A DNA stretch of 64,000 bases from Micromonospora sp. WMMD1082 (lineage in GTDB: Bacteria > Actinomycetota > Actinomycetes > Mycobacteriales > Micromonosporaceae). The translations under genes were made by a program, and so were the position numbers. The stretch covers positions 2,621,001 through 2,685,000 of the forward strand of contig NZ_JARUBM010000002.1 in assembly GCF_029626175.1 (NCBI RefSeq), in the 5' to 3' direction. Of the stretch, positions 6,580-64,000 are shown piece after piece; the stretch's first letter is position 1, and every line of letters starts with the position of its first letter. The notes under the pieces were generated by a model. It was not told the origin of the DNA. It saw only the letters and a list, made by a program, of their open reading frames with translations, and made no database searches.

Positions 6580-7764
6580 TTAGAGCCAGTCGTTGCGGCG
6601 GAACCAGCGGTAGAGGGTGAGGGAGATGCCGAGCATGAGGGCCAGGACGACGGGGTAGCCGTAGGTCATCTTCAGCTCGGGCATGAAGTCGAAGTTCATG
6701 CCGTAGATGCCGGCGATCGCGGTCCACACGGCGGCGATGGCGGCCCAGGCAGCGATCTTGCGCATGTCGTTGTTCTGGTCGACCGTCACCTGGGCCAGCC
6801 GCGCCTGAAGGATCGAGTTCAGCAGGTCGTCGTACGAGTTGACCAACTCGACGGTGCGGCTGAGATGGTCCTGCACGTCGCGGAAGTAGCGGCGTACCTC
6901 CTTGGGCACGTCCCGGTTCATCTGGGTGGTCAGCGCCAGCAGCGGACGCTGCAACGGCATCACCGCCCGCTTGAACTCGACCAGCTCCCGCTTCAGCTGG
7001 TAGATCCGCTGGATCCGGCCGCTGGCCTGGCGGTCGAAGACCTCCGTCTCCAGCACATCCATGTCGTCCTCGAGCTGGTCGGCGACCTCCAGGTAGAGGT
7101 CGACGACCCGGTCGGTGATCGCGTACGCGACGGCCCAGGGGCCGTTCAGCAGCAGCTCCTGCCGGGCCTCCAGCTCCTCGCGTACGGGCGCGAGACGGCA
7201 GGCGTCCCCGTGCCGGACGCTGATCACGAAGTGCGGACCGATGAAGAGCATCACCTGCCCGGTCTCCACGACGTCGGAGTTCTCGGTCAGTTCGGTGTGT
7301 TCGCAGTACCGGGCGGTGCGCAGCACCAGGAAGCTGACCTCGCCGAAGCGCTCCAGCTTCGGACGCTGCTGGGCCTTGACCGCGTCCTCCACGGCCAGCT
7401 CGTGCAGTCCGTAGGTCGTGGCGATCTCGGTCATCTCGGCGAGTTCCGGCTCGTGCAGCCCGAGCCAGACGAAGCCGGTCTCGGCGTCGCGGGCCGCCGC
7501 CAGCGCACCGGCGTAGTCCCAGTCACCGGCCTGCCGCCGGCCGTCGAGGTAGAGCGCGCAGTCGACCACCGCGCTGCGGTGTTCGGCCGGCGTCTGGGTG
7601 GGCGGGGATCCGTCGGCGTTGAGTCGCCGCGTCATCGCGCGTACCGGTGACCAGTTGCGGGGCCGCAGGGTCCGGCCGCCGTTGGGGGATTCCGCCCGGT
7701 CGTCATTCCGGGACGGGCTGTCCGGCGAGGTCGTCCCCGCTCGCTGCGTCCGTTCCGTCATCAC
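6580..7764 (-). CDS. corA: CorA-family magnesium/cobalt transport protein
   Basis: 394 residues. Long N-terminal cytoplasmic domain (to about residue 325) with a disordered Ser/Pro/Arg-rich first 50 residues, helical stalk with many charged residues, then two C-terminal membrane helices. The selectivity signature YGMNF is at residues 354-358, directly after the first helix, and the protein ends in a basic tail as in CorA pentamers. It conducts Mg2+ (and Co2+) through the inner membrane. Length exceeds typical CorA (about 320-350) because of the disordered head, so a later start such as the in-frame Met near residue 44 is possible. Monocistronic; its 3' end faces the palindrome. Confidence 0.92.
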   Translation of the reverse strand: MMTERTQRAGTTSPDSPSRNDDRAESPNGGRTLRPRNWSPVRAMTRRLNADGSPPTQTPAEHRSAVVDCALYLDGRRQAGDWDYAGALAAARDAETGFVWLGLHEPELAEMTEIATTYGLHELAVEDAVKAQQRPKLERFGEVSFLVLRTARYCEHTELTENSDVVETGQVMLFIGPHFVISVRHGDACRLAPVREELEARQELLLNGPWAVAYAITDRVVDLYLEVADQLEDDMDVLETEVFDRQASGRIQRIYQLKRELVEFKRAVMPLQRPLLALTTQMNRDVPKEVRRYFRDVQDHLSRTVELVNSYDDLLNSILQARLAQVTVDQNNDMRKIAAWAAIAAVWTAIAGIYGMNFDFMPELKMTYGYPVVLALMLGISLTLYRWFRRNDWL

Positions 7765-8102: not shown

Positions 8103-9197
8103 TCAGCCGCGTACCGCCGCCATCGCCTCGGCCAGACGCCGTACACCCTCGTCGATCCGGTCCGCGGTGACGGCGGAGTAGGCCAGCCGGAGGGCGTGCC
8201 GCCCACCGTCGACCACGAAATCGCTGCCCTTGACCACCGCGACGCCACGCTCGGCCGCCGCCGGGGCCAGCCGATCGACGTCGACATCCTCGGGCAGCTC
8301 GACCCAGAGGAAGTAGCCGCCGTCCGGCTCCACGAACCGGGCCTCGGGAATGTGCCGACGCAGCGACTCGGCGAGCACGCCCGCGCGCTCGCCGAGGGCC
8401 GCCCGGACCGTCTCGATCGAACGCTCGATGTCCCCCGACACGCAGAACTGGTGCACGATGGCCTGCGCGACCATTCCCGGGGAGATGTAAAGACTGGTGG
8501 CGTTCTTCGCGATGTCCCTGATCAGGTCCGCCGGGCCCACCAGGTAGCCCACCCGCACCCCGGGGCAGACGGTCTTGGTGAAGCTGGACGCGTGCACGAC
8601 GACGCCGCGGGTGTCCATCGACAACATCGACGGCAGCGCCTCGCCCCGGAACCGGATGTCGGCGTACGGGTCGTCCTCGAAGATCGTGAAACCGAACTCG
8701 GCGGCCAGGTCCAGCAGTTCGCGGCGCTTCTCCAGGGACAGCGTCACGCCCGCCGGGTTCTGGTAGTTCGGGATGACGTGTGCCAGCCGGGGGCGCACCC
8801 CGGTCTCCAGCAGCTTGCGGAACTCGGCAGTGTCCAGGCCGTCCGGCTCGACGGTGACAGCGTGCAGTTCACTGCCCAGGTTCTTCAGGTTGAGCAGGGT
8901 GCGGTCGTAGGTGGGACGCTCCACCACCACCGCGTCGCCGGCGCGCACCAGGTGATCGAAGAGGAAGGCGTCGGCCTGCAGCGAGCCGTTGGTGACCAGC
9001 ACCTGCTCCGCCTCGACCCCGTGCTTCTCGGCGATCCACTTCCGCAGTGGAACGTAGCCGACGGAGGTGCCGTACGCCGTGACCCCGGCGGGGTCGGCGT
9101 CGAACGCGCGGACGGCGGCGGCCTTGAGCCCCTCGACATCGACGATGTCCAGCGAGGGGGCGCCACGGGCGAAGGAGATCAGCTGCTCGGCGGTCAT
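8103..9197 (-). CDS. PLP-dependent aminotransferase, class I/II (LysN/MocR-catalytic type)
   Basis: 364 residues with the fold-type I aminotransferase core and no N-terminal DNA-binding domain. Motifs: NGSLQADAF for cofactor phosphate binding, IPNYQNPAGVTLS (Asn in N-P), FEDDPYADIRF, the Schiff-base lysine in SSFTKTVCPGVRVGY (Lys208) and a C-terminal LRLAYS arginine. The NPAGVT and EDDPY blocks are those of 2-aminoadipate/valine-pyruvate-type enzymes related to the MocR catalytic domain; the substrate is undecided. The ATG at 9197 has TACGCT 8 nt upstream, suggesting a leaderless mRNA. A strong hairpin follows its stop, so it is likely monocistronic. Confidence 0.9.
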   Translation of the reverse strand: MTAEQLISFARGAPSLDIVDVEGLKAAAVRAFDADPAGVTAYGTSVGYVPLRKWIAEKHGVEAEQVLVTNGSLQADAFLFDHLVRAGDAVVVERPTYDRTLLNLKNLGSELHAVTVEPDGLDTAEFRKLLETGVRPRLAHVIPNYQNPAGVTLSLEKRRELLDLAAEFGFTIFEDDPYADIRFRGEALPSMLSMDTRGVVVHASSFTKTVCPGVRVGYLVGPADLIRDIAKNATSLYISPGMVAQAIVHQFCVSGDIERSIETVRAALGERAGVLAESLRRHIPEARFVEPDGGYFLWVELPEDVDVDRLAPAAAERGVAVVKGSDFVVDGGRHALRLAYSAVTADRIDEGVRRLAEAMAAVRG

Positions 9198-61998: not shown

Positions 61999-62060
61999 CG
62001 CAGCTCACCTTCAGCGCGTGGCGTCGCGCGGGAGCGCGGCCGGTCGTGGCAGGATGCGGC

Positions 62061-64000
62061 GTGCCCCCGTTCAACGCCGTACCCCCCGGTGGCCGCCCGC
62101 CCTTCGTCGCGGACCTGCACATCCACTCGAAGTACTCGCGGGCCTGCAGCCGCGACCTGACCCTGCCGAACCTCGGTTGGTGGGCCCGGCGCAAGGGCAT
62201 CGCGGTGCTCGGCACCGGTGACTTCACTCACCCCGCCTGGTACGACCACCTGCGCGAGACGCTGCATCCGGCCGAGCCCGGCCTCTACCGGCTGTCACCG
62301 GAGGCGGAACGGGACATCGCCCGCCGCCTGCCGCCCCGGCTGGCCAGCGCGGCGGAGAGCGATCCGGTCCGGTTCATGCTCAGCGTGGAGATCTCCACGA
62401 TCTACAAGCGGGACGACCGGACGCGCAAGGTCCACCACCTGATCTACCTGCCGGATCTGGACGCGGTGGGTCGGTTCAATGCCGCGCTGGGCCGGATCGG
62501 CAACCTCGGGTCGGACGGCCGGCCGATCCTCGGTCTGGACTCGCGTGACCTGTTGGAGATCACCCTGGAGGCGAGCCCGGACGGTTTCCTCGTCCCGGCG
62601 CACATCTGGACCCCGTGGTTCTCCGCGCTGGGCTCGAAGTCCGGCTTCGACGCGATCGCCGACTGCTACGCCGACCTGGCCGACCACATCTTCGCGGTGG
62701 AGACCGGGCTCTCCTCCGACCCGGCGATGAACTGGCGGGTCGGCAGCCTGGACCGCTACCGGCTGGTCTCCAACTCCGACGCGCACTCACCGCCCGCGCT
62801 CGCCCGCGAGGCCACCGTCTTCGCCTCGGCCCGGGACTACTTTGGCGTACGCGAGGCGCTGCGCACCGGCGACGGGCTGGCCGGCACGATCGAGTTCTTC
62901 CCCGAGGAGGGCAAGTACCACGCGGACGGCCACCGGCTGTGCGGGGTGAACTGGGCGCCCGAACGGACCCGGGAGGCCGGCGGGCGCTGCCCGGAGTGCG
63001 GCAAGCCGTTGACGGTGGGCGTACTGAGCCGGGTCGAGGACCTGGCCGACCGGCCCGAGGGGTACCGGCCGCAGCGTGTTCCCCAGGTGACCCACCTGAT
63101 CCAGCTCGCCGAGATCCTCGGCGAGATCAACAAGGTCGGTCCACGGTCGAAGCGGGTCGAGGGGAAGCTCACCGAACTGGTCGCCGCGCTCGGTCCGGAG
63201 CTGGAGATCCTCACCCGTACCCCACTGGACGAGATCGGCCGGGTCGGCGGTGAGGTGCTCGCCGAGGGCATCGCCCGGCTGCGCCGCGGCGAGGTCCGCC
63301 GCGTTCCCGGCTACGACGGCGAGTACGGCGTGATCACCCTCTTCGACCCGGCCGAGCTGGGCCGTGCCGGGGTGTCGGCCGGGCAGGAGACCCTGTTCGA
63401 CGTGCCGGTTCCGGCGCAGCGTCGGCCCGTGGAGCCGACGGCGACACCGCACGCCAAGGCGACTCCGGAGGCCAGGGCGAAGCGGCCGGCGGGCAAGGCC
63501 GAACCGAAGCGCGAGCCGGCCACCCCGGCACCGCCGATCGCGCCACCGCCCTCCCCGCACGAGCCGTTCGAGCCGATGCTCGCCGGGATGGAGGAGGTCG
63601 GCACCGGCCTGCTGGACCGGCTCGACGCGATGCAACGGGTGGCCGCCTCGGCACCCGGCGGCCCGCTGCTCATCGTCGCCGGACCGGGCACCGGCAAGAC
63701 GCGTACGCTGACCCACCGGATCGCGTACCTCTGTGCCGAGTTGAACGTCTTCCCCGAGCAGTGCCTGGCGATCACCTTCACCCGGCGGGCGGCGGAGGAG
63801 TTGCGGCACCGCCTGGACGGCCTGCTCGGCCCGGTCGCCGAGGACGTCACCGTCGGCACCTTCCACTCGCTGGGGCTGACCATCCTGCGCGAGAACGCCG
63901 GGGCCGCCGGCCTGCCGGACGATTTCCGGATCGCCGACGACGCGGAACGGACGGCGGCCCGCGCCGAGGCCGGCGAGGACGCGGCCCGCTACACCGCACT
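62061..64000 (+). CDS. EndoQ-type PHP nuclease fused to UvrD/Rep helicase (3' partial)
   Basis: At least 646 residues from GTG 62061; the gene runs off the window. Residues 1-430 match the TIGR00375/endonuclease Q family: ADLHIHSKYSRAC (first metal motif), LGTGDFTHPAWYD, MLSVEISTIYKRDDR-type block, VPAHIWTPWF, VSNSDAHSPP and a zinc site built from LCGVNWAP and RCPECGKPL. A Pro/Ala-rich linker (about 450-505) leads into a UvrD helicase beginning at LLDRLDAMQRVAA: Walker A VAGPGTGKTRTLTHRIAYL, motif Ia AITFTRRAAEELRHRL and TVGTFHSLGLTIL. It would nick DNA 5' of deaminated or abasic bases and unwind from there (inference). Downstream helicase motifs are not visible. Confidence 0.9.
   Translation, partial: MPPFNAVPPGGRPPFVADLHIHSKYSRACSRDLTLPNLGWWARRKGIAVLGTGDFTHPAWYDHLRETLHPAEPGLYRLSPEAERDIARRLPPRLASAAESDPVRFMLSVEISTIYKRDDRTRKVHHLIYLPDLDAVGRFNAALGRIGNLGSDGRPILGLDSRDLLEITLEASPDGFLVPAHIWTPWFSALGSKSGFDAIADCYADLADHIFAVETGLSSDPAMNWRVGSLDRYRLVSNSDAHSPPALAREATVFASARDYFGVREALRTGDGLAGTIEFFPEEGKYHADGHRLCGVNWAPERTREAGGRCPECGKPLTVGVLSRVEDLADRPEGYRPQRVPQVTHLIQLAEILGEINKVGPRSKRVEGKLTELVAALGPELEILTRTPLDEIGRVGGEVLAEGIARLRRGEVRRVPGYDGEYGVITLFDPAELGRAGVSAGQETLFDVPVPAQRRPVEPTATPHAKATPEARAKRPAGKAEPKREPATPAPPIAPPPSPHEPFEPMLAGMEEVGTGLLDRLDAMQRVAASAPGGPLLIVAGPGTGKTRTLTHRIAYLCAELNVFPEQCLAITFTRRAAEELRHRLDGLLGPVAEDVTVGTFHSLGLTILRENAGAAGLPDDFRIADDAERTAARAEAGEDAARYTA

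Follow-up and report, generated by a model that had tools for sequence, protein, structure and literature searches.

Analysis of a 64,000-nucleotide stretch of the Micromonospora sp. WMMD1082 genome (the window; positions 2621001-2685000 of contig NZ_JARUBM010000002.1) revealed that the gene at its right-hand end encodes, in one open reading frame (ORF), an Endonuclease Q (EndoQ)-type nuclease followed by a UvrD-family helicase and a terminal motif of the sliding-clamp type. The fusion is real and conserved, and is undescribed in the literature searched; this analysis observed its domain order and fold, the conservation of its ligands and helicase motifs, its terminal motif, the co-divergence of its two halves and its spread. 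We consider it somewhat probable that the protein acts as a lesion-specific, ATP-driven initiator of DNA repair, in which EndoQ-type nicking would be coupled to strand stripping by the UvrD part, with the enzyme held on the clamp by its tail.

The gene lies on the forward strand and starts with GTG at 62061, with an alternative in-frame GTG at 62046. The frame is open from either start to the end of the window and onward in the genome; residues 1-646 of 1,071 are encoded within 62061..64000 and the remainder, including the TGA stop, in the 1,276 bases beyond (L007:8061-11276). A sequence-only reading of the window had proposed a single frame joining a PHP nuclease to UvrD, and the full gene bears this out: a stop or frameshift just past the window was looked for and none was found. 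The possibility that the window edge conceals a frameshift, a stop or a chimeric join is rejected, since the 1,071 codons are open within a 7.4-Mb contig and many other species show the same architecture. The relatives found by sequence in the PDB were the Pyrococcus furiosus enzyme PfuEndoQ (5zb8, 7k30) over residues 17-432 and PcrA/UvrD over residues 516-1063, the two relationships that the window had led that reading to expect. The fusion is easy to overlook because a Pfam scan of the whole protein (E up to 0.001) matches the UvrD half alone and the other half falls below the TIGR00375 cut-off.

The EndoQ-type nuclease (residues 17-432; 62109..63356, + strand) comprises a PHP domain, a zinc site and a C-terminal helical part, and matches PfuEndoQ (5zb8) with an E-value of 7.7e-42; the homology runs along the full nuclease half and the fold match covers nearly all of EndoQ. 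The residues that we take to be metal ligands, from general knowledge of PHP enzymes, lie in DLHIHS (18-23), GTGD (51-54), E110, HH (125-126), PAH (179-181), ETG (E214) and SNSDAH (237-242), all within 62112..62789 on the + strand, and each ligand position is kept in 84-87 of 87 aligned sequences as well as in the WMMD1082 copy. The 'zinc-binding cysteines' reported from the window needed amendment: the zinc-site motif is present (H291-x2-C294 ... C310-x2-C313; 62931..62999, + strand), but it consists of three Cys and one His rather than four Cys, the His (86/87) standing where Pfu EndoQ has Cys249 and each Cys being kept in 87/87. Although this departs from the literal Cys4 signature, it is plausibly still a zinc site. 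Positions shared with Pfu extend beyond the ligands to the T, P and W of PAHxxTPW and to ExGLSxD, GKYH and SxSDAHSP. Since its score lies below the TIGR00375 cut-off, we class the domain as EndoQ-type, a separate subfamily, and not as a TIGR00375 EndoQ. The ratio of non-synonymous to synonymous substitution rates (dN/dS) against four relatives was 0.06-0.21 for the EndoQ part and 0.08-0.21 for the helicase part.

The two halves are joined by a poorly conserved linker (residues ~433-510; 63357..63590, + strand), which varies from 40 to 124 residues across 51 aligned fusions and is modelled with low confidence (predicted local distance difference test, pLDDT, <50 for residues 437-507 in the predicted structure of the M. 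andamanensis orthologue). The UvrD-family helicase starts at residue ~511, its N-terminal end occupying 63591..64000 (+ strand), and continues past the window to residue ~1050; it is complete, with PF00580 (217 bits) and PF13361 (108 bits) both over cut-off and PcrA 1pjr matched at E=7.9e-80. Walker A (AGPGTGKT, residues 540-547; 63678..63701, + strand), whose G, K and T residues are invariant in the 51 fusions, and motif Ia (ITFTRRAA, residues 571-578; 63771..63794, + strand), whose T and F are invariant, had been recognized correctly within the window, and DEYQD and the later motifs are situated past its end. Over the same alignment, the residues of Walker A, Ia, DEYQD, GDxxQxIYxFRGA, NYRS, TLHxxKGLE and VGxTRA are invariant or conserved in at least 90% of sequences. 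The helicase nevertheless scores below every NCBIfam equivalog cut-off (pcrA, 369.7 against 911.2 bits; uvrD, 307.1 against 1144.45; rep, 288.8 against 951.45), and two regions are shortened, a feature that, like the C-terminal motif beyond the window, was absent from the earlier reading. Compared with L002, the UvrD-type paralogue nearest to it in the WMMD1082 genome, the fusion has 88 aa (residues 860-947) in place of 159 and lacks counterparts to 39 paralogue residues after residue 626; the PcrA alignment is likewise shortened (query 881-938 against PcrA 400-530). These stretches are presumably the places of subdomains 2B and 1B. Because deletion of 2B activates the Rep monomer as a helicase (PMC6158625, PMC13238157), a fusion motor that works without dimerising seems reasonable by analogy. 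A conserved loop with the consensus GGxSFxSxDSGRxxG, whose first two glycines (G805 and G806) are kept in all 51 fusions, falls at a gap in the PcrA alignment; in the numbering of the M. andamanensis orthologue (L022) it spans residues 805-828.

The protein terminates in QLRLI (residues 1067-1071, its last five; L007:11259-11273, beyond the window), a predicted docking site that looks made for the beta sliding clamp when set beside the published clamp-motif consensus QL[S/D]LF, more broadly QxxLF (PMC12309361). A Qxx followed by two hydrophobic residues occurs within the last 32 residues of 71 of the 72 complete fusions, the exception (L092) ending QMSFDF; a looser clamp pattern is found in the last 14 residues of 71/72, the exception (L048) carrying QLSLL further inward; and the strict form Q[LMIV]x[LMIVF][FLIM] is found there in 64/72. 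The Gln stands exactly fifth from the C-terminus in 66/72, and 17/72 have QLSLF or QLDLF as their tail. Elsewhere the strict motif was counted 15 times in 73,972 positions, which gives an expectation of 0.15 in the tails, a guide and not a probability because the sequences are related. Furthermore, in the 51-row alignment the tail Gln is kept in 51/51, whereas each of the ten preceding columns reaches at most 28/51. The EndoQ of Thermococcus kodakarensis has a C-terminal PIP box that binds PCNA and is required for its stimulation, and bacterial EndoQ homologues with clamp-type motifs are noted in the same paper (PMC4858679). Together with the tail of a standalone actinobacterial EndoQ copy (L021), which ends QLSLL, these reports suggest that the clamp tail was kept, or regained, at the C-terminus of the enlarged protein, as it appears from the sequences. 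A further clamp-type motif, QETLF (of the QxxLF form), lies in the linker (63384..63398, + strand); linker matches of this type occur in 18/72 complete fusions and are confined to Micromonospora and Salinispora, and a contig-cut Chloroflexi copy (L087) has QLSLF in its linker.

The relatives of the gene were evaluated among at least 590 confirmed matches to its EndoQ part in genome contigs, the best 80 of which were analysed; as these were picked by likeness to the WMMD1082 EndoQ part, the proportion fused applies to close relatives alone. The majority (67/80) are complete fusions, in which the helicase match extends to residue 1045 and the frame ends in a stop; this argues that the fusion is not due to chance. 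A further six are cut by a contig end with the helicase already in frame, two lose the frame within the helicase (L035, L076), and in L088 and L093 it is lost at the linker, the helicase following in a different frame. By record titles the fusions fall in nine phyla (Actinomycetota, Pseudomonadota, Candidatus Melainabacteria, Planctomycetota, Elusimicrobiota, Binatota, Myxococcota, Verrucomicrobiota and Chloroflexota, the last solely through the contig-cut L087), although many assignments come from metagenome-assembled genomes, L060 is possibly misbinned and the phyla are unevenly sampled; the single Gemmatimonadota copy is standalone. Pairwise distances of the EndoQ and helicase parts were correlated over 51 fusions (r=0.88; 0 of 999 permutations as high); the two halves co-diverge. 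A quick tree of 73 rows, with 15 near-identical Micromonosporaceae rows left out and an unsure root on the very long PfuEndoQ branch, has 10 phylum-label changes against a minimum of 9, and seven fused/alone changes, the 'alone' rows including L018 (contig end) and L088 and L093 (frame break). The EndoQ family search also matches Bacillus subtilis, M. jannaschii and M. acetivorans.

Within the sampled Micromonosporaceae, the EndoQ part was matched in 105/121 genomes, 98 of the 105 in a frame of at least 979 aa. Across the phylum, 7 of 296 sampled genomes match, comprising five complete fusions, one contig-cut copy (G028) and one standalone copy (G275). The deamination burden of a very GC-rich genome, offered earlier as a rationale, is rejected as a driver family-wide, 13/72 complete fusions lying on stretches below 45% GC, down to 32%. 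A mobile or viral origin is likewise rejected: the EndoQ domain was not found in phage or plasmid collections at 1e-5, nor in a viral-contig collection, whose four matches were all restricted to helicase residues 678-768. The Gastranaerophilales-type copies carry an A-run (GTAAAAAAAAA) exactly at the EndoQ/linker junction (~8230-8245 where the match starts at 7001), which is A9 in L076, L077, L084, L095, L098, L099 and L093, A8 in L078 and A10 in L088. In L088 and L093 the frame breaks at this run, where EndoQ ends and the helicase stands in another frame; the breaks could be draft errors or could reflect slippage making EndoQ alone, and AT-rich Lys codons may explain the run itself.

In the mechanism that we propose, the EndoQ-type N-terminus would find a deaminated base (deoxyuridine, dU, or deoxyinosine, dI) or an abasic (AP) site and cut the backbone 5' of the lesion, so that one side of the nick is a 3'-OH and the other a 5' end carrying the lesion; the UvrD motor, on its flexible tether, would load at the enzyme's own nick, run 3'->5' along the intact strand and peel the lesion-bearing strand from its 5' end. 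The QLxL[F/I/L] tail would hold the enzyme on the beta sliding clamp, so that it nicks and peels at a place where a polymerase can extend the 3'-OH; general enzymes would then remove the flap and seal the nick. EndoQ is reported to nick 5' of uracil, hypoxanthine, xanthine and AP sites to give a 3'-OH and a 5'-phosphate (PMC4357722, PMC6202378), and UvrD-type monomers translocate 3'->5' (PMC13238157). The geometry would fit because a 3'->5' motor on the intact strand displaces the lesion-bearing 5' end and leaves the 3'-OH for the polymerase; a motor that loaded on the nicked strand instead would be unproductive. Incision 5' of dU, dI or AP sites, clamp stimulation (as of archaeal EndoQ with PCNA) and 3'->5' polarity would carry over from published homologues; we infer that the fusion protein shares these activities, that nicking and unwinding are coupled and that the steps follow this order. 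A role in an alternative excision repair route, as the sequence-only reading suggested, stays the best-supported interpretation in view of the ligands, helicase motifs, fold and co-divergence; incision itself would be expected by homology.

Several results weigh against this repair role. Identity to Pfu EndoQ is only 33.5%, the TIGR00375 (NCBIfam) score is 146.3 bits against a cut-off of 326.6, and His replaces one zinc Cys. The WMMD1082 tail ends in Ile and not in the consensus Phe, and the fifth tail residue in actinobacterial copies is mostly Ile or Leu rather than Phe. The predicted template-modelling score (pTM) of the M. andamanensis model is 0.54, the relative placement of the two halves not being fixed. 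Three of the best 80 loci have no helicase in the available stretch (L071, L096 and L097, the last only 3.9 kb long), and therefore the fusion is not obligatory. The WMMD1082 genome has four matches to the uracil-DNA glycosylase (UDG) superfamily, which makes uracil repair redundant; the genome is thus not short of it. Endonuclease V (EndoV) was not found in the WMMD1082 genome and was present in 7/7 other sampled genomes of the genus, but across the Micromonosporaceae sample, where it was scored present at E<1e-30 and weaker, partial matches were scored absent, it is not inversely related to EndoQ (61/105 against 12/16; P=0.27), and the fusion as an EndoV replacement is rejected. Several Micromonosporaceae genera (for example G312, G325 and G338) show just a weak partial EndoV match (E 1e-8 to 1e-13, profile ~18-144) where other genera have a full EndoV, possibly a divergent EndoV-like family. 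The WMMD1082 genome also has one EndoMS/NucS, ending ELTLF.

Seven neighbouring ORFs encode a MoaA-type radical S-adenosylmethionine (SAM) protein, a ThiS/MoaD-type protein, a calcineurin-like phosphoesterase, a frame without a family, an AAA ATPase, a DUF5753 protein and a pyruvyl transferase. Neighbours were clustered for 86 of the 87 loci (L018 left out), and no conserved operon partner was seen among the 40 largest clusters; the recurrent non-overlapping neighbours outside Micromonosporaceae, named by eye, were an ABC-transporter-like ATPase (9 loci) and a response regulator (6 loci).

The two activities could also be uncoupled: the EndoQ part would nick lesions as a backup, the UvrD part would be an accessory helicase that, bound to the clamp, clears away nicks, gaps or protein blocks, and the fusion would merely deliver both to the clamp. 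The long, variable linker, predicted to be unstructured, the lack of a fixed predicted interface and the standalone copies in the same clades are consistent with this, yet the two halves co-diverge, the complete fusion prevails among the closest loci and a long tether would suit coupling as well; we regard uncoupled activities as unlikely. It is somewhat less likely still that the nuclease has shifted its specificity to a different substrate, such as an oxidised or alkylated base, a flap or a mismatch, and supplies the helicase from cuts made there. The distance from Pfu, the many family-specific conserved positions unlike it (among them R27, H57, E278-F280, D289-G290 and H291), the score under the TIGR00375 cut-off and the uracil glycosylases already in the genome would favour such a shift, whereas all ligand and several shared non-ligand positions are kept and the structural match extends over almost all of EndoQ.

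Defence genes are usually less steadily distributed among related genomes than the EndoQ domain is among Micromonosporaceae, and this steadiness makes it very improbable that the protein is a Gabija-like nuclease-helicase directed against phages whose DNA contains uracil or is modified. PADLOC GajB models do match its helicase half (best 239.5 bits), and two neighbours gave weak matches, viperin (E=1.8e-14) to the MoaA-type protein and mads_8 (E=4.4e-5) to the AAA protein; however, the former is a Mob_synth_C/MoaA-type protein in Pfam, no neighbour is conserved, and the GajA model had no match in the seven ORFs scanned at this locus. We give almost no credence to a catalytically dead EndoQ part that would serve the helicase just by binding DNA or by regulating it: the altered zinc site could be read in this way, but the near-complete retention of ligand positions and the low dN/dS argue against it.

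Compared with known systems, the fusion shares with EndoQ itself (P. furiosus PF1551, T. kodakarensis TK0887, M. acetivorans, B. pumilus; TIGR00375) full-length homology, PHP ligands, a zinc-binding domain and a C-terminal clamp-type motif, but differs in sequence as given above, adds a UvrD-family helicase after the nuclease and carries the clamp motif after the helicase. From UvrD/PcrA/Rep (superfamily 1A) it differs by its N-terminal nuclease, shortened 1B and 2B, and scores far below the equivalog cut-offs. AddAB, AdnAB, RecBCD and Gabija GajAB also pair a UvrD-type motor with a nuclease and appear lower in the structure-search lists, which are filled by the helicase half; their nucleases belong to other families and act on ends or invading DNA, not on single damaged bases. 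EndoMS/NucS, a clamp-stimulated repair endonuclease of Actinobacteria and Archaea, takes mismatches rather than lesions as substrate, lacks a helicase and has a different fold. EndoV-type alternative excision repair also starts by nicking at a deaminated base without a glycosylase, but uses another protein family (PF04493), and we know of no EndoV with a helicase half. Published reports describe stimulation of EndoMS/NucS by the sliding clamp (PMC8228993) and cleavage 3' of the lesion by EndoV (PMC7776575). EndoQ was first described from P. furiosus, with T. kodakarensis second (PMC4357722), and not from Thermococcus as stated earlier. In the accessible parts of the open literature searched, no description of an EndoQ-UvrD fusion was found, nor was it mentioned in those of PMC8307549, PMC7776575 and PMC3820547, which contain both kinds of term.

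EndoQ has been described as mainly archaeal with few bacterial homologues (PMC4357722, PMC6202378), and EndoQ-type enzymes extend beyond the bacterial phyla that these papers name. Removal of the damaged strand after the EndoQ nick has been proposed to proceed through flap cutting by Fen1 or a 5'-3' exonuclease (PMC4357722), or was left as 'the downstream repair pathway' (PMC6202378). The chances seem to us evenly balanced that recognition, a 5' nick and stripping by a shortened, possibly constitutively active UvrD are united in one clamp-bound polypeptide, glycosylase-free, spread over about nine phyla and undescribed in the literature searched. Taken together, a natural fusion of nick, unwinding motor and clamp-type tail suggests a bacterial answer to strand removal and offers one protein to test, possibly an overlooked one-protein starter of DNA repair.
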